The position numbers and the translations under genes were made by a program. Shown one piece after another: positions 50,656 through 58,837 of a stretch of DNA of 64,000 bases. The stretch covers positions 1 to 64,000 of the forward strand of contig JAIEPE010000023.1 of assembly GCA_019749915.1 (NCBI GenBank), written 5' to 3'. The DNA comes from Alphaproteobacteria bacterium (GTDB lineage: Bacteria > Pseudomonadota > Alphaproteobacteria > UBA9655). The notes under the pieces were generated by a model. The model made no database searches. It saw nothing but the letters and a program-made list of their open reading frames with translations, and was not told the origin of the DNA. Position 1 is the first letter of the stretch. Every line of letters begins with the position of its first letter.

Positions 50656-51603
50656 ATGCTCAGCACAATAGATCTTCTTACTTTTCTCCTTGCGTTTATA
50701 GCAGTAACTTTCATCTTCTCAATTTTAATAAAATTACGAGAAGGAAATATTTTTAAAAGGCGTTTAAAAGAGTTAATAAATTATAAAGAAACTCTTCTTC
50801 ATGAAGAAGAAAGTGATGTTAAAAAGATTTACAAAGGTTTTCAAAAAAGTAGATTTCAGTTTTTAAGAAACTTTATTTATAAAATTCAAAGTTCAGGAAA
50901 AAATGAACAAAACTCTATCCGCAAACAATTTCTTAAAGCAGGATTTTCTAAGGAAAATGCTGTTTTTATTTATGGAATTTCTAAGCTTGGGCTGACTTTA
51001 ATATTAGGAGGGGGAGCTACATTCATTGTTTTTACCTATACACAGTGGAACCTTTTATACAAAATCATAAGTATATTGGGAGGCGCCTTGATGGGATCTT
51101 ATCTCATCGACTTCATTTTACAAAAACTTGTAGAACAACGACAAGCACGGATCAGCAGAGCTTTTCCAGATGCCCTGGACCTTATGGTACTTTGTACAGA
51201 ATCAGGGTTGAGCCTACCCGTAACGGTTCAAAGGGTTGCTCAAGAACTTGCTCAAATATCACCCGACTTAGCCTATGAACTTGCCCTCTTATCCATTGAG
51301 TTAAATATGTTATCCGATCGTCAAAAAGCCTTACAAAATTTTAGTGACCGTTTAGATTCTCCCTATTTTAAATCAATCATTTCAAATATCCAACAGTCTG
51401 AACAATATGGAACACCTATTGCCCAAACCATGCGTGCCTTATCAGAACAATTTCGAGAAGATCGACTTGTCATGGCTGAAGAAAGAGCCGCCAAACTACC
51501 TGTCCTCTTAACCCTCCCGATGATGATATTTATTTTTCCTTGTATTTATATATTTATTTTAGGGCCTGCTATAATACACATCATAGGCGTTGTAGGGCAT
51601 TAA
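50656..51603 (+). CDS. tadC: Tad inner-membrane platform protein TadC
   Basis: 315 residues with an N-terminal helix, a cytosolic region, two central helices, and the T2SSF domain AFPDALDLMVLCTESGLSLPVTVQRVAQELAQ. Also visible are ERAAKLPVLLTLPMMIFIFPC and a last helix. TadC is the partner of TadB. It is the last gene of the + strand Tad operon and converges on the pseudopilin genes with a four-base overlap. Confidence 0.92.
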   Translation: MLSTIDLLTFLLAFIAVTFIFSILIKLREGNIFKRRLKELINYKETLLHEEESDVKKIYKGFQKSRFQFLRNFIYKIQSSGKNEQNSIRKQFLKAGFSKENAVFIYGISKLGLTLILGGGATFIVFTYTQWNLLYKIISILGGALMGSYLIDFILQKLVEQRQARISRAFPDALDLMVLCTESGLSLPVTVQRVAQELAQISPDLAYELALLSIELNMLSDRQKALQNFSDRLDSPYFKSIISNIQQSEQYGTPIAQTMRALSEQFREDRLVMAEERAAKLPVLLTLPMMIFIFPCIYIFILGPAIIHIIGVVGH

Positions 51604-51980
51604 GAAGTGGGAAGCACTTGATGAACATTTGCTGTAATTGTAATTGGGTTCATTGGTAAATAAAAAGGAGTAAAAGAAAAGGTCCCCGTAATATCAGCGG
51701 ACACAGAACTAATGCTCGCACTAAAAGTAATGGCAGATCCCAAATCAATCGTCGATGCAGCATAGTTTTTAAGCTGCGAGCTCGTGCTTGTGGGATGTAC
51801 AAAAGCATATCGAGCTGTATAAGAAAGAGCATACTCAAGCGAAATATAGCCCCACATGATGTATCCTAATTGAAGAATACCCAAAATAAAAAGAAGAAAT
51901 AGAGGCAAAACAATAGCCGATTCAATAGCGGTATTCCCCATTCCATCTTTTAGATAATATTTTAACCTGTTAAGGTTCAT
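51600..51980 (-). CDS. TadE-like pseudopilin
   Basis: 126 residues with the TadE signature: a short basic leader (LKYYLKDGMGNTAIESAIVLP) ending in G-x3-IE, and a hydrophobic helix LFLLFILGILQLGYIMW. The glycine before N-T-A-I-E is the likely prepilin peptidase cut site. The rest is a small serine/threonine-rich beta domain. It is the last of three co-directional pseudopilin genes. Pseudopilins of this type are needed for Flp assembly. Confidence 0.82.
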   Translation of the reverse strand: MNLNRLKYYLKDGMGNTAIESAIVLPLFLLFILGILQLGYIMWGYISLEYALSYTARYAFVHPTSTSSQLKNYAASTIDLGSAITFSASISSVSADITGTFSFTPFYLPMNPITITANVHQVLPTS

Positions 51981-51992
51981 ATTGACTTCTCG

Positions 51993-52433
51993 CTAATTCG
52001 TCCGGACTGTACCGGTCGCACTTGTGGTAAAGGGGTTATTAATAATGAAATCAGGCGCTATAAGTGTCACACTGCTCTGTGCCGTCATTGTAATGTAAGT
52101 TCTAGGAACACTTCCATCTGAACAAGTACTTGTGCACGTTGCCCCAGCTCCTGCGCACTGACAAAATGAAGAAGTTGTAATGGTTAATGGTGTCATGCTT
52201 GAGGCACCTTGCATAACTGTCTGAACCTTCGCAGGTGTCATCGTAGCTCCTGCTCCTGCGGCATAAAGCATGCCCGCATTGAGAACGCTATAAAGCTGAT
52301 TTTGATTCGCAAGGATCAACCCAAAATTCGTAATTCCCGATAAAAGTAGAACAAAGAATGGCGTTAGAAGAGCCATTTCAATAGCAACGCTCCCTCGCAC
52401 ATTCTTAAAATATAATTCCTTTAACCACATCAT
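51993..52433 (-). CDS. TadE/TadF-like pseudopilin
   Basis: 146 residues with a leader FKNVRGSVAIEMALLTPFF, cut after the glycine by analogy, a helix FFVLLLSGITNFGLILA, and a C-terminal domain with a cysteine cluster (FCQCAGAGATCTSTC). The four or five cysteines suggest disulfides in the periplasm or on the surface. It lies 12 bases upstream of the first pseudopilin gene and 9 downstream of the TadG-like gene. Confidence 0.8.
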   Translation of the reverse strand: MMWLKELYFKNVRGSVAIEMALLTPFFVLLLSGITNFGLILANQNQLYSVLNAGMLYAAGAGATMTPAKVQTVMQGASSMTPLTITTSSFCQCAGAGATCTSTCSDGSVPRTYITMTAQSSVTLIAPDFIINNPFTTSATGTVRTN

Positions 52434-52442
52434 CTCCCTACC

Positions 52443-53735
52443 TTATTCTATAAACTTTAATTTGCCTCCTCCAGCTCCTGGAATTACACAACCATTTTGA
52501 AATGAACTTGTTCCTTTCATCGTAAGACTATTAACAACGATTTGAGTACATGGATTCCCAGTTCCCCCTGCGTTTCCATTAAAACTAAGGTTTCCTTTTG
52601 GAAAATAGATTGCCCCTTGAAGGTTCATTGTCCCTCCCCCTCCAAAACTTTCATTAAGAATCGAGGATGAGTTTCTATCTCCATAGAATAATATTCCGGC
52701 ATATGTACCCGTGGTTGGAGCGATTAAATTCACACTACTGTTAGCTCCAATGCTTACAGCCCCAAAAGTATTTGACGTCGCAGTGTTTGTGGTTAGAACA
52801 ATGGTCACACCACCTGTGCCGGTAACGGTTCCACCACTAACAGTAAAATTACCAGCAGAACCCGTTTTTCCACTACTTCCTACAAGGTAGTAGGTCCCGG
52901 GAGTCATCGTAAGATTTCCTTTTGTTGTGATGCCACCACAATATGTGCCAGGACCAATTGTTTGAGCTTTATTAGACCCCAGATTAAAATTTGTTTGGGT
53001 GCATGTGTTTAATGAAGTAGGAGCTGGCGCTGAAAGTGAACTGTAAGGATCTGCAAGTACAGGAGCCCCCGTTGTCACATTTCCCGTGATACTCGATGCA
53101 CCACTAAGGTTGGTATTACCCACAACAGTTAAGGCACTCACATTAATTGAGGGATTCCCACCCAAATTTACCGCATTACTGCTACTTGAATCCACATAAA
53201 AGCCGCAAGAAGGAGAATTAATTGTTGGATTTCCTTGCATGGTTAGACCTTGGCCAGTTCCTTGCAAACTAATATTACAATATACTACCGGATTCTGTGT
53301 TGCAACAGAACGAGCATGAAGAGTTGGCGCAGTAGCCATGGTGATCCCTGATAAAAAAATATTGGCTGGTTTTGAAAGAATGACTTCAACAGCGTTATTA
53401 TCACCCGTATTAGGACCACTTGTGGGGGGATTATGAATACCAACAATAGTGCATTTCGCGGAGCCCGTACATTGATTCAATGTAAGATCATAAGTCGCAT
53501 AAGTGGACACGGGTAATCCTTTAGATTTAGCAATCGCCCCTCCCATAGCGCCTGCGTCTGCTGCAAGTTGTAATTGACGTTTCTGATGATACCAAACGCC
53601 AACATCCATAGTTAAGGCGCCAAAACCCATGAGGACAACAAGCAAAAGAGCTGCCATAATCGCTATAGCTCCTTTATCTTGTACAATAGCCTTATGAAAG
53701 GCAGGCTTATTAAGCCACCTAAATAAAAAATTCAT
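52443..53735 (-). CDS. TadG-like pilus-associated protein
   Basis: 430 residues. The N-terminal DKGAIAIMAALLLVVLMGFGALTMDV followed by YHQKRQLQLAADAGAMGGA is typical of TadG/TadE-like (DUF2134-type) proteins that span the membrane once. The long C-terminal part is rich in G, N, S and T with repeating short beta-strand patterns (GGTVTGTGGVTIVL). It resembles a polymer-like beta solenoid exposed outside the membrane. It starts a three-gene unit behind a palindromic promoter region. Confidence 0.82.
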   Translation of the reverse strand: MNFLFRWLNKPAFHKAIVQDKGAIAIMAALLLVVLMGFGALTMDVGVWYHQKRQLQLAADAGAMGGAIAKSKGLPVSTYATYDLTLNQCTGSAKCTIVGIHNPPTSGPNTGDNNAVEVILSKPANIFLSGITMATAPTLHARSVATQNPVVYCNISLQGTGQGLTMQGNPTINSPSCGFYVDSSSSNAVNLGGNPSINVSALTVVGNTNLSGASSITGNVTTGAPVLADPYSSLSAPAPTSLNTCTQTNFNLGSNKAQTIGPGTYCGGITTKGNLTMTPGTYYLVGSSGKTGSAGNFTVSGGTVTGTGGVTIVLTTNTATSNTFGAVSIGANSSVNLIAPTTGTYAGILFYGDRNSSSILNESFGGGGTMNLQGAIYFPKGNLSFNGNAGGTGNPCTQIVVNSLTMKGTSSFQNGCVIPGAGGGKLKFIE

Positions 53736-53808: not shown

Positions 53809-54255
53809 TTATTTCTTCCGGAATTTATCAAGGGTAACAACGTTATCCTTACTCTTCGAGGAGGGGTGGTCTTCCTGTGTAAAGGGCTCTTCCTTTTCAA
53901 TAAAGGGCGGCGGTGTAAATTGAAGGCCAAACTTAGCATAAGGATCCATAAAACTAATCAAAGCATGGAACGGAACATAGATCTTCTCTTGAGAATCACT
54001 GAAACTGAGGGTGATATAAAATCCTTGATCATCTACCTCAAGGCCCCAATATTGGTGCTGAATGACGATAGTCATTTCCTCAGGATGACGTTCTCTTAAA
54101 TAATCCGCCAGCTGAACTCCAGGGTAATCCGTCTTAAAAGCAATATAGAAATGATGAGCTCCGGGGAGCCCTTCTACAGCTGTAGTCTTCAAAGCCTCAC
54201 GAACAACGCCGCGCAGACCTTCTTGTACCATCTCTTCGTAATCAAAGCCGTCCAC
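53809..54255 (-). CDS. sspB: ClpXP adaptor SspB (alpha type)
   Basis: 148 residues from a GTG with GAGGGG seven bases upstream. It opens MDGFDYEEMVQEGLRGVVREAL and has the SspB core GLPGAHHFYIAFKT, VIQHQYWGLEV and FYITLSFS, with VPFHALISFMDPYAKFGLQF. The C-terminal tail ends VVTLDKFRKK, the ClpX-docking module. SspB tethers ssrA-tagged proteins to ClpXP. It lies directly downstream of the tmRNA gene on the same strand. Confidence 0.93.
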   Translation of the reverse strand: MDGFDYEEMVQEGLRGVVREALKTTAVEGLPGAHHFYIAFKTDYPGVQLADYLRERHPEEMTIVIQHQYWGLEVDDQGFYITLSFSDSQEKIYVPFHALISFMDPYAKFGLQFTPPPFIEKEEPFTQEDHPSSKSKDNVVTLDKFRKK

Positions 54256-54284
54256 AGAATCACCCCTCGCTAATCTTGCTCATT

Positions 54285-54590
54285 AATCAATGAGGGGCTT
54301 CTGTTGCCCGGCGCCCCTCGAACCGCGATCGCAAACCAAAATTAAGCAGCGTTAGCCACTTTGATTCCAGTTATGTTGCTAGCATTTAAGTTAGCAGGCA
54401 TACGACCAAATGCATTCATATTTTTTGCATTTATATGTTTAGTCCGATAACGGTGGTACCATACCGAGTGAAAATCCAACCTTTATTACGCTCGTCGATC
54501 CTAATTCACCCCCATAATTAAACCTTAATGGTGGAGGTGCCGGGTTCCGCCCCCGGGTCCGAAACGCCTATTTCGTAAGACGTTTATCAC
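54285..54590 (-). ncRNA. ssrA: circularly permuted two-piece tmRNA
   Basis: Read on the minus strand. The acceptor piece comes first (about 54590-54529), with a stem AAACGTCT/AGGCGTTT and a T-arm-like hairpin, ending CACCTCCACCA. After 15 bases of intervening sequence the coding piece begins at 54513 with GGGGGTGAATTAGGATCGACG. The two ends pair in a seven-base acceptor stem (GGGGGTG/CACCTCC). The tag frame (54395-54342) encodes ANLNASNITGIKVANAA then TAA. A GAGGGGC/GCCCCTC hairpin ends the coding piece. This permuted layout is characteristic of alphaproteobacteria. Confidence 0.92.
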
Positions 54591-54734
54591 TATAGTCAAG
54601 TTTCCCTGACAACTTAAATATAAGCCTTTTTTCATGAGATTTAAAGAGGGTTTATACTTTTATTTTGCATAATTTTATGATGTTAACTTTTTTTAAATGA
54701 ACGTAAGATAAAAACAAGAGAATAGGAGGCACAT

Positions 54735-57700
54735 GTGACTCTCAGAGATGTTCAATTGGATGATAAATATACCCTTGAAGAAGGGGAAATTTATATCACC
54801 GGGGTTCAAGCCCTGGCACGTCTGCCTTTGATGCAAAGAAAACGGGACCTGGCACAAGGCCTAGATACGGCCGGCTTTATCTCGGGTTATAGAGGCTCCC
54901 CTCTAGGCGGATTTGATCAAACTCTTTGGAAAGCCCAAAAATTTCTCGATGACAATAGAATCACTTTTACACCCAGCATTAATGAAGATTTAGGCGTAAC
55001 AGCCGTTTGGGGAAGCCAACAGTTGCCTCTTTTTAAAGGCGGTCGCGTTCAGGGAGTCTTCTCCATGTGGTATGGCAAAGGTCCAGGGGTCGACCGAAGT
55101 GGGGATGCCTTCAAACATGCTAATATGGCAGGTTCTAGCGCCTTTGGAGGCGTATTAGCTCTTACTGGGGATGATCACGCCTGCAAATCCTCAACTCTGC
55201 CCCATCAAAGCGAATATGCGTTTATGGACGCCTCCATTCCTATACTTGTTCCTTCCAATGTGCAAGATATCCTAGACTTAGGGCTTTATGGATGGGCTCT
55301 TTCCCGCTATTCTGGGTGTTGGGTGTGTTTTAAAGTTATTGCTGACACGGTAGATACGTCTGCAGTTGTCACCGTTTCACCTCAAAGGACGCCCATCGGA
55401 CTTCCCCAAGACTTTTTTATGCCAGAGAGTGGGCTCAATATTCGCTGGCCTGATGCACCCCTTGAGCAAGAAAAAAGGCTACGTCTTTATAAACTTGAAG
55501 CTGCAAAGGCTTTCGTCAAATCCAATCACCTCGATAAAACCCTTTTTAAGGGGCAAAAAGCCCGCTTTGGAATTATCACTTGTGGTAAAACTTTCCAAGA
55601 TGTACGCCAAGCCCTTGAAGACTTGGGCCTCGGTGAAAAGGAGACCGCCGATTTAGGGGTAGCTGTTTATAAAGTTGCTATGAGTTGGCCTTTGGAGCCC
55701 TCTCGTTTTAAGGAGTTTGCAGCAGGGCTTGAAGAAATTCTTATTGTTGAGGAAAAGCGACCTTTGATTGAAGGACAAGTTAAAGACATCCTTTATGAAC
55801 TTCCTGAAGGGAGGCGTCCTCGGATTGTGGGCAAGAAAGATGAGCAAGGAAACCCTTTGCTCCCTGAAATTTATGAGCTCTTGGTACCAGAAGTGGCCCA
55901 TGCGATTGGTCAGCGCATCCTGCGCTTTGATAAGTCTTCCAAAATAAAAGAAGGCTTGAAGCGCTTGGATCAACTCTTTCAAAACCAACTCCAGAAAGCG
56001 CCAGATCTCGTACGCCTTCCTTATTATTGTTCTGGCTGCCCTCATAATACCTCCACAACCCAACTTCCGAAAGGAAGCAGAGCTGTTGCGGGCATTGGGT
56101 GCCATTACATGGCCACCTGGATTGCCAATGATACGGCTACTTTCACCCAAATGGGGGGAGAAGGGGTTCCATGGATCGGCCAATCGCCCTTTACGGACGA
56201 AAATCATATCTTTGCCAATATTGGGGATGGAACTTATTACCACTCTGGTATCCTTGCTATTCGTGCTTCGATTGCGGCGAAAGTCAATATTACTTATAAA
56301 ATCCTTTATAATGATGCAGTGGCCATGACGGGAGGACAGTCTGTTGATGGGCCCCTCGATGTGGCCATGGTCTCAAATCAAGTTTACGCAGAAGGGGTTC
56401 GAAAAATTGTTGTTCTCAGCGATGATCCCCATAAATATCCAGTAAATTCTGGCTTTGCGCCAGGTGTTCACATTGGCCACCGTGATGAACTTCAACAAGT
56501 CCAAGAAGACTTGAAAAAATGGCCTGGCGTGTCCGTTCTGATCTATGATCAAACCTGTGCGGCTGAAAAGCGCCGCCGCCGAAAAAGAGGCCTTATGGAA
56601 GAGCCGGACAAACGGATCTTTATTAATGAGCGAGTTTGTGAAGGATGTGGAGATTGCAGCATTAAGTCAAATTGCCTTTCTGTCCAGCCTATTGAAACCC
56701 CTTTGGGAAGAAAACGAAAAATTGATCAGTCCAGCTGCAATAAGGACTATTCCTGTGTCAACGGCTTTTGCCCTAGTTTTGTAAGCGTTCATGGTGGCAA
56801 GCTGCGAAATCTCACTCCTACAGCTAAACTTGAAGATCTCCTGGGGCACTTTCCTGATCCTAAAATTCCTGTCCTCAATACACCTTACCGTATCTTTATA
56901 ACAGGCGTAGGCGGTACAGGGGTGGTTACAATTGGGGCAATTTTGGGGATGGCCTCCCACCTGGAAGGCAAAGGATGCTCCATTGTGGATATGACGGGGC
57001 TGGCTCAAAAGGGAGGAGCCGTTGTATCCCATGTTTGTATTGCCAAAGCGCCAGAGAATATTCATGCAACCCGCGTCTATATGGGTGAGGCGAATCTCAT
57101 TTTAGGATGCGATATTGTAGTAACGGGAAATCCTGATACCCTTAATAAAGCACAGCCAGGAAAAACGAAAGCTCTAGTCAATGAGGATCAAACCATTACA
57201 GGCCACTTCATTCATGATTCCGACTATAATTTTCACCATGAAACTTTGAAAAAAAATATCACCTCAACGCTGGGGAAGGATCATGTTGATTTTATTGATG
57301 CCGCTCATATTGCAAGGCGGCTTTTAGGGGATTCTATTGCGACCAACATGTTCATGATAGGATATGCTTATCAGAAAGGTCTAATCCCCCTGTCCCACGA
57401 GTCTATTGAAAAAACTATTGAAATGAACGGGGTTGCTGTTCCCATGAACATTCAAGCTTTTCGTTGGGGGCGCTATGCAGCTATTGACCTCAAAGCTGTT
57501 GAAAAAGCAGCCGGTCTTGATAAAGAAGAAAAAATCTTTGCCGTTCCTAAAACCCTTGAGGAGATCATTACTTTCCAAAAAAAATTTTTAACTGGTTATC
57601 AAAACAAAGCCTATGCAGAACGCTACGAAAAATTTGTAAATCAGGTCGTCACTCATGACAGAAAACTCAAGCGGGATGAGCTTTCCAAGGCGGTGGCAAA

Positions 57701-58202
57701 ATATTATGCCAAGCTTCTTGCCATTAAAGATGAATATGAAGTGGGCCGGCTTTTTGCTGATGGAACATTTATAAAGGAGCTCTCCCTTCAATTTGAAGGA
57801 CCAGTGAAGCTTAAATATTACCTAGCACCACCGCTAATTGCCCGCCGCAATCCAGCAACGGGTGAGCTTCAAAAGAAAGAATATGGCGCCTGGATGATGC
57901 ATGGATTCCGTCTTTTGTCCAAACTCAAAGGGCTGCGTGGCACCGTGTTTGATATTTTCGGCTATACCAAGGACCGTAAAAAGGAGAGAGCTCTCATTAA
58001 AGAATATGAGGTCCTGATAAAGTCTCTCTTGAAGAATTTAAAACCTGAAAATTATGAGATTGTCGTTGAGCTCGCCAGCCTCCCCGAGCATATTCGCGGC
58101 TACGGACATGTCAAAGACCGCCATCTTGCGGATGTAAAGATTAACAAAGAAGTGCTTCTGTTGCGATTCTTTAATGTAGAGAAGGATAATAAAACGCCCT
58201 AG
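54735..58202 (+). CDS. indolepyruvate ferredoxin oxidoreductase (fused alpha-gamma)
   Basis: 1155 residues from GTG with AGGAGG five bases upstream. It oxidatively decarboxylates indolepyruvate and other aryl pyruvates to acyl-CoA using thiamine diphosphate and ferredoxin. The N-terminal half is the IorA-like part (GFISGYRGSPLGGFDQTLW; TPP region ANIGDGTYYHSG). A cysteine cluster, CEGCGDCSIKSNC with a later SSCNKDYSCVNGFCP, replaces the usual ferredoxin domain. The C-terminal IorB-like gamma domain has ITGVGGTGVVTIGAILGMAS. The fused form is common in proteobacteria. It converges on the deformylase gene with a four-base overlap. Confidence 0.92.
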   Translation: MTLRDVQLDDKYTLEEGEIYITGVQALARLPLMQRKRDLAQGLDTAGFISGYRGSPLGGFDQTLWKAQKFLDDNRITFTPSINEDLGVTAVWGSQQLPLFKGGRVQGVFSMWYGKGPGVDRSGDAFKHANMAGSSAFGGVLALTGDDHACKSSTLPHQSEYAFMDASIPILVPSNVQDILDLGLYGWALSRYSGCWVCFKVIADTVDTSAVVTVSPQRTPIGLPQDFFMPESGLNIRWPDAPLEQEKRLRLYKLEAAKAFVKSNHLDKTLFKGQKARFGIITCGKTFQDVRQALEDLGLGEKETADLGVAVYKVAMSWPLEPSRFKEFAAGLEEILIVEEKRPLIEGQVKDILYELPEGRRPRIVGKKDEQGNPLLPEIYELLVPEVAHAIGQRILRFDKSSKIKEGLKRLDQLFQNQLQKAPDLVRLPYYCSGCPHNTSTTQLPKGSRAVAGIGCHYMATWIANDTATFTQMGGEGVPWIGQSPFTDENHIFANIGDGTYYHSGILAIRASIAAKVNITYKILYNDAVAMTGGQSVDGPLDVAMVSNQVYAEGVRKIVVLSDDPHKYPVNSGFAPGVHIGHRDELQQVQEDLKKWPGVSVLIYDQTCAAEKRRRRKRGLMEEPDKRIFINERVCEGCGDCSIKSNCLSVQPIETPLGRKRKIDQSSCNKDYSCVNGFCPSFVSVHGGKLRNLTPTAKLEDLLGHFPDPKIPVLNTPYRIFITGVGGTGVVTIGAILGMASHLEGKGCSIVDMTGLAQKGGAVVSHVCIAKAPENIHATRVYMGEANLILGCDIVVTGNPDTLNKAQPGKTKALVNEDQTITGHFIHDSDYNFHHETLKKNITSTLGKDHVDFIDAAHIARRLLGDSIATNMFMIGYAYQKGLIPLSHESIEKTIEMNGVAVPMNIQAFRWGRYAAIDLKAVEKAAGLDKEEKIFAVPKTLEEIITFQKKFLTGYQNKAYAERYEKFVNQVVTHDRKLKRDELSKAVAKYYAKLLAIKDEYEVGRLFADGTFIKELSLQFEGPVKLKYYLAPPLIARRNPATGELQKKEYGAWMMHGFRLLSKLKGLRGTVFDIFGYTKDRKKERALIKEYEVLIKSLLKNLKPENYEIVVELASLPEHIRGYGHVKDRHLADVKINKEVLLLRFFNVEKDNKTP

Positions 58203-58837
58203 TCACTTTTCATCGCAGCTTGGCGTTTTTTACGGTACTCTTCTATAGAAAAAAGTTCAGATTCAGGAACAAGATCGACAAAGCAACGCCCATTTAAATG
58301 GTCAACTTCATGTTGAATCACGCGAGCTAAAAATCCGTGAGCTGTCCCTTCAACCTTTTTCCCTTCAGGTGTAAAGGCCACATATCGAACTGTTGTATAA
58401 CGGGCGACAGGACCGGCTAAATCATCAACAGAAAAGCACCCTTCATAATCTGTTGTTTTTTCCTCGCCAACAGGTTCATAAGAAGGATTCAACCACACAG
58501 TTTTTGGCATCGTTTGATTGAGATCTGGACGCCATTTTTTAAGCTCTTCTTCGCCTTCTACCTCAAACACGATAACTTTTTTCCCAAACCCAATTTGAGG
58601 GGCTGCTAGGCCTGCACAATTTTCCTCTTGATCAAATTTATCAATTAAGATTTGCACCAGTTCTTTATCTTTCTCTGAAAGAGGGAAGGTAAAGGGTTGG
58701 GCAGGTTCACGTAACACAGCTGTATCACTGGACTTTGGATTGTTGATGACAACATAATCGGGCAAGTCTTTCATGGGTGTGCATCCAATTGTAAGAGTGA
58801 TAAGAGAAAATAAAAGTGTGGCTTTCTTATACATCAT
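58199..58837 (-). CDS. peptide deformylase family protein with lipoprotein-like signal
   Basis: 212 residues. All three deformylase motifs are intact: [10 protein letters not shown] (motif 1), YEGCFSV (motif 2, metal cysteine) and QHEVDHLNG (motif 3, metal histidines). The N-terminus [19 protein letters not shown] looks like a lipoprotein signal with a cysteine at residue 19, followed by about 35 extra residues. Ordinary Def is cytosolic, about 170 residues. An exported copy would have no nascent chains to act on, so the true substrate or the start is uncertain. It overlaps proS by four bases. Confidence 0.82.

Follow-up and report, generated by a model that had tools for sequence, protein, structure and literature searches.

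Tags of about 27 amino acids are found in Mycoplasma and Mesoplasma, where they are read by the protease Lon; these organisms are not known to possess SspB, which is a dimer. The tag encoded at the locus described here is of similar length, but SspB and ClpX are conserved alongside it and copies of an A-N-x-N motif recur.

In the E. coli tag, SspB is bound by the N-terminal AANDENY, and ClpX takes up the C-terminal ALAA (PMC8512704). The same paper describes a synthetic AANDENYAANDENY tag, likewise with two adaptor-binding copies per tag, for which no significant change in the KD for SspB was found in E. coli and which was degraded with SspB despite lacking ALAA (PMC8512704), results that make a benefit by avidity doubtful and favour a role of reach. 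This degron is man-made, carries the gamma-type motif and has no alanine-rich end, whereas the natural long tags described below possess an alanine-rich end and linkers. The most frequent length of tags is 10 amino acids and extremely short tags exist (PMC11915505). Repeated modules are not mentioned in the accessible parts of PMC11915505 and PMC4131195, and a literature search by title and beginning of the abstract, with most subscription papers outside its scope, retrieved none in natural tags.

The permuted ssrA gene and the adjacent sspB

The window, the whole stretch of 64,000 nucleotides analysed (contig JAIEPE010000023.1 of the alphaproteobacterial assembly GCA_019749915.1, GTDB lineage UBA9655), contains the following features:

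54617..54645, minus strand: promoter-like site of ssrA, TTTAAA-17-TATATT, a weak consensus match
54529..54591, minus strand: tmRNA acceptor piece with its CCACCA end at 54529 and a putative 5' end, from the RF01849 and RF04321 alignments
54514..54528, minus strand: intervening sequence TTAAGGTTTAATTAT, 15 nt, between CCACCA and GGGGGTG, from the sequence and the covariance model alignment
54289..54513, minus strand: tmRNA coding piece, from GGGGGTG (starting at 54513) to the 3' hairpin with GGCAACAGAA, from the covariance model alignment
54342..54428, minus strand: tag frame AKNMNAFGRMPANLNASNITGIKVANAA plus TAA, from ARAGORN, the covariance model alignment and the order alignment
54396..54428, minus strand: N-terminal head AKNMNAFGRMP, corresponding in degenerate form to the ANDNxAxx with which ordinary tags begin, from the order alignment and the derived tags
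54381..54395, minus strand: internal A-N-x-N module ANLNA, from the derived tags and the shuffle survey
54369..54380, minus strand: SNIT, degenerate third module, from the xNxN of relatives at the corresponding place
54345..54359, minus strand: C-terminal VANAA, from the sequence
53809..54255, minus strand: sspB, alpha-type SspB adaptor of 148 amino acids with GTG start and C-terminal LDxFR, from PF04386, PDB matches and a 16-row alignment

The tmRNA and SspB themselves are of known kinds. The alpha_tmRNA model RF01849 matches 54649-54289 (minus strand) with 236.9 bits against a cut-off of 50 and over its full length (model positions 1-355 of 355), tmRNA_permuted RF04321 matches 54591-54342 (minus strand) with 154 bits, and ARAGORN predicts a permuted tmRNA at 54621-54251 (minus strand), so that the two-piece tmRNA proposed in the initial annotation is borne out by all three. 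As in other permuted tmRNAs of these models, the acceptor piece with its CCA precedes the coding piece, which carries the GGCAACAGAA 3' motif; the 15-base spacer that had been noted between the two is present at 54528-54514 and would be expected, from the class of the RNA, to be excised. Six promoter-like sites were found in the scanned region versus 3.2 expected in shuffles, and the TATATT of the listed site falls in a 5' stretch that is conserved both in RF01849 and in the alignment of the order.

The sspB product scores 137.2 bits against PF04386 (cut-off 27) and matches the PDB entries 2nys, 2qas and 2qaz, the latter two with an E-value of 2.2e-31 over residues 4-132. We take 2qas and 2qaz to be the alpha-type SspB of Caulobacter, to which the protein is alike in sequence; the ligand expected here, on the other hand, is a long tag with repeated modules. 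The C-terminal LDxFR is kept in 16/16 aligned members of the order and ClpX and SmpB were found in all 17 of its genomes, which is consistent with delivery to ClpXP.

Both genes lie on the minus strand with a gap of 33 nt between the end of the covariance model match (54289) and the start of sspB (54255), in agreement with the adjacency and common direction described previously. A strong terminator, which had been named as evidence against a joint unit, was searched for by consensus scan, and neither terminator-like nor promoter-like sites were found on the minus strand of the gap 54289-54255, which makes co-transcription of ssrA and sspB plausible; weak terminator-like sites of the same strand lie at 54361-54344, within the final part of the tag frame, and at 54171-54156, within sspB. 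The adjacency is not a notable feature of the locus, as it is usual in the class: a same-strand sspB was found at most 500 bp from the tmRNA match in 41 of 56 relatives having either gene or both, and directly 3' of ssrA (within 600 bp of the stop of the tag, same strand) in 102 of 148 alphaproteobacterial family representatives. Among the remaining 46, four possess a same-strand sspB further off, 39 show none by tblastn in the fetched stretch, a search by which a divergent sspB may be missed, and three stretches are incomplete. In one member of the order (G008; L037, 644-1017), the matches to the tmRNA and to SspB are 399 bp apart versus 46-70 in its relatives, and one SspB match (G023:C3:7383-7802) holds an in-frame TGA.

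Divergently from ssrA, a long fusion protein combining POR, TPP-enzyme and DUF6537 domains, an oxidoreductase presumably of the indolepyruvate ferredoxin oxidoreductase type, is encoded at 54735-58202 (plus strand). A peptide deformylase (PF01327, 132.1 bits) is encoded at 58199-58837 (minus strand). Tad-pilus-like genes follow 3' of sspB on the same strand (51600-53735), with the open reading frame 52443-53735 matching PF13400 and PF07811 and two smaller minus-strand frames before 52433 being similar to it by eye.

The 28-residue tag and its order

The tag of the window is AKNMNAFGRMPANLNASNITGIKVANAA, 28 amino acids read from the resume codon GCA at 54428, as placed by the covariance model alignment, ARAGORN and 16 aligned genomes of the order; the frame runs from this alanine codon to GCT GCT TAA, an arrangement kept in the 16 members. 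The initial annotation had proposed a tag of 17 amino acids, ANLNASNITGIKVANAA, which corresponds to residues 12-28 in the same frame. Its frame stands, also against the covariance model that had been suggested as a possible refutation, which shifted only the start; its beginning is rejected by the same three lines of evidence, an internal A-N-x-N copy having been mistaken for the first residues. Equally, the AN-N start ascribed to the tag does not hold, as the head reads AKNM and ANLN is internal, at residue 12. GCAAA occupies the resume position in 16/16 aligned members, followed by open frames of 27-40 codons; the alignment comprises 16 of 17 genomes, the tmRNA of the seventeenth (G010) being cut by the end of its contig.

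Within the order, the head has no intact AN.N in any of 16 members and carries K at position 2 in 15, AN[LF]x[AC] is found in 13/16, and xNxN lies 13-14 amino acids before the C-terminus in 12/16. In the window, ANLNA is situated 17 amino acids from the end and the last copy, SNIT, is degenerate. The C-terminal VANAA is expected to be the end that contacts ClpX. Previously regarded as unusual, this end has indeed an N at position -3 that occurs in 0/123 short and 3/25 long family representatives, but VANAA is common to 4/16 tags of the order. The absence of acidic residues was correctly noticed, with neither D nor E in the tag of the window or in those of three other order members.

Compared with an ordinary alphaproteobacterial permuted tmRNA, the tag of which has 9-15 amino acids (123/148 representatives) and an ANDN head, the window encodes 28 amino acids with an AK head and an internal A-N-x-N. 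The tag is thus atypical, as had been stated, by its length and repeated modules, which had escaped the first inspection. It conforms to a long repeated-module tag (at least 20 amino acids with an internal small residue-N-x-N) that is common to the order of the window and 24 further families; the position of its ANLNA, on the other hand, falls outside the 10-15 amino acids before the C-terminus where the last copy is mostly found.

Repeated modules among alphaproteobacterial tags

Tags were derived for 196 genomes from 148 of 163 numbered families, 38 of them set by hand from the DNA, and all were re-found in frame. Of the 15 families without a tag, 14 have no usable tmRNA match and one (f25) was left out although one of its genomes (G160) has a match; single rows were omitted because of a contig end (G010), an unresolved tag (G188), weak matches only (G073, G094, G265) or a partial match (G132). 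As the survey deliberately over-samples the order of the window, long-tag families and SspB-lacking genomes, counts of genomes are not frequencies. With one representative per family, tag lengths fall into 123 short (9-15 amino acids) and 25 long tags (at least 20), with none of 16-19; among all genomes, long tags span 20-44 amino acids. An ANDN head is present in 115/123 short representatives, and long tags that repeat the head motif are exemplified by ANDNVAFVAANDNNVVEVRAAA (f150), ANDNAQFVAANDNFVVEGDIAIAA (f127), ANSNKAPVANFNRAYAAVAA (f20) and ANSNVANGNSVGATGGFAAFAPANGNFAAVAA (f80). Outside the class, 30/30 proteobacterial tags have 10-15 amino acids and no repeat; these were picked by highest score, not at random, from the 97 genomes that exceeded the cut-off in a phylum sample of 150. 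In five families (f130, f148, f153, f102, f17; L250, L278, L279, L243, L246, L226, L260), the resume codon of tags read by hand is apparently GGC, GTC or GTG rather than one for alanine.

When the residues after the fifth were shuffled within each of the 25 long representatives, the motif proved to be repeated beyond chance: an internal [AVSCTGIM]N.N, a motif class picked after inspection of the tags, is present in 23/25 versus 4.8±1.9 in shuffles (0/5000 as high), a plain N.N in 23/25 versus 8.2±2.1 and AN.N in 16/25 versus 2.7±1.5. With unedited ARAGORN tags alone, an internal N.N is found in 18/20 versus 6.6±1.9. Enrichment of AN by itself was considered and rejected (18/25 tag bodies versus 16.5±2.2), only N-x-N being enriched. 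The internal copy is absent in two of the 25 representatives (f102, f123), and internal N-x-N is absent in 8/59 long tags overall, including 3/16 order members (G005, G013, G014).

The repeated motif also tends to keep its distance from the end of the tag. In 19/25 long tags, xNxN starts 10-15 amino acids before the C-terminus versus 3.2±1.6 in shuffles (0/3000), a window likewise chosen after inspection of the tags; no enrichment was found 4-9 or 16-21 amino acids before the C-terminus of these tags, and a smaller excess occurs at 22-24 (5 versus 0.9±0.9). Since ordinary short tags are themselves about 10-15 amino acids long, the C-terminal part of most long tags amounts to one full tag of ordinary length.

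Codon change, adaptor recognition and the role of the repeats

The start of the tag is doubly constrained, by the ribosomal resume site and by the protein, which makes the cause of ANDN retention there hard to separate. In the order head (codons 2-10, 10 members in register), pS is 0.23, and this low synonymous variation suggests a constraint on the RNA near the resume codon rather than on the protein; protein selection on the head is unsupported, with a pN/pS of 0.84 and a bootstrap interval of 0.32-1.92. For codons 11-19 of the same 10 members, pN/pS is 0.39 (0.15-0.76) with a pS of 0.64, and for the internal ANDN of three further families (f104, f127, f150) it is 0.056 among six tags. In these small samples, the internal copies thus vary mainly synonymously between genomes. 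That copies away from the resume codon keep A-N-x-N with mainly synonymous change points to protein-level recognition. Codon differences between the copies of one tag are weak as proof of such selection, as both Asn codons are identical between head and internal copy in 10/19 tags with both intact, where unchanged descent from a DNA duplication is possible.

By analogy with the E. coli tag, A-N-x-N would be the site of the alpha-type SspB and the copy nearest to the C-terminus the working one. The reading that we prefer, and consider rather probable, is that the long tag, encoded in one unit with sspB, holds modules for recognition by SspB as natural repeats, the working copy being C-terminal; co-transcription, SspB binding, the choice of the working copy and the use of ClpXP are what we infer. 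The two genes would form a single transcription unit of the kind that is ordinary in Alphaproteobacteria. Its precursor RNA would be cut into the two tmRNA pieces, and sspB would be translated from the same transcript. The tmRNA would then add a ‘tag within a tag’ of 28 residues (29 counting the charged alanine), in which an N-terminal extension with a decayed A-N-x-N head precedes another copy and an alanine-rich ClpX end of the ordinary type. SspB would most likely dock on the A-N-x-N nearest to the C-terminus and pass the C-terminal residues to ClpX, with the drifting upstream copies serving as spacer, spare docking sites or remnants. In the window itself, ANLNA would be the working copy, as the last copy, SNIT, is degenerate.

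Long tags are confined to families with genomes of at most 2.6 Mb (25/85 versus 0/63 with larger ones), a restriction that fits drift as well, and they cluster on a tree of SspB, where the long/short label needs 6 changes versus 27.5 in shuffles. The tree comprises 120 rows with SspB inside the fetched stretch and has 117 inner branches, 69 of which are open; many independent origins of long tags are not claimed, most branches being without support, and as a single origin may account for the clustering, the families are not independent. Together with the decayed heads of the order and the identical Asn codons in 10/19 tags, these observations are also what would be expected if small-genome lineages had the slack to put up with in-frame lengthening of their tags, with the repeats being functionless duplication fossils kept by descent. 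We consider this unlikely, as the last copy keeps its preferred distance from the C-terminus while the upstream length varies, the pN/pS of internal copies is well below 1 and only 2/25 family representatives have no internal copy. Less probable still is that the repeats, as bivalent or multivalent sites, occupy the two grooves of an SspB dimer or bind several adaptors at once and speed delivery to ClpXP: two intact ANDN copies occur in the tags of f104, f127 and f150 and SspB is dimeric, but not one of the 16 order members retains an intact AN.N head. The lack of a significant KD change with the synthetic AANDENY tandem in E. coli (PMC8512704) equally speaks against it. We regard it as very improbable that another protease reads the long tag, comparable to Lon in Mycoplasma, with SspB being of little relevance; the length of the tag and the VANAA end in 4/16 order tags would fit, but SspB with its conserved LDxFR and ClpX are present throughout the order and an SspB match was found in 58/59 long-tag genomes (exception G141, possibly through incompleteness of the genome).

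Beyond the preferred reading of the locus, we tentatively propose, as a possibility for the class, that the tags of at least 25 alphaproteobacterial families have become natural tandem degrons in which the SspB module has been duplicated or triplicated, with the working copy held at a fixed spacing from the C-terminus that contacts ClpX and the module lost in SspB-less lineages; tag and adaptor would co-evolve and the repeats would alter delivery. Internal copies and SspB-less lineages provide in this respect a natural experiment on tag-adaptor co-evolution as well as a collection of tandem degrons of natural origin. Short tags have N at positions 2 and 4 in 119/121 genomes with SspB and in 6/16 without (Fisher p ~1e-9 at genome level, ignoring kinship); for eight genomes (G250, G260, G286, G320, G329, G355, G385, G394) the absence of SspB is deduced from its not being among the matches listed, and in G018, G141, G201 and G385 it may be missing through genome incompleteness. 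Of the genomes with SspB, only G332 and G297 deviate, the SspB match of the latter being weak (1.3e-16). The association is carried chiefly by the families f48 and f93 as a whole, in which 5/5 and 4/4 genomes examined do not keep the N2/N4 pair, as is the case for 1/3 genomes of f30; both residues are kept despite the absence of SspB in f144 and in 2/3 genomes of f30. In the tags of f48 and f93 (L155, L265, L267-L269; L170, L271, L274, L275), of which AKSDYAEYALAA and ANESYAIAA are examples, the second N of ANDN is gone, and no SspB is detectable in these genomes.
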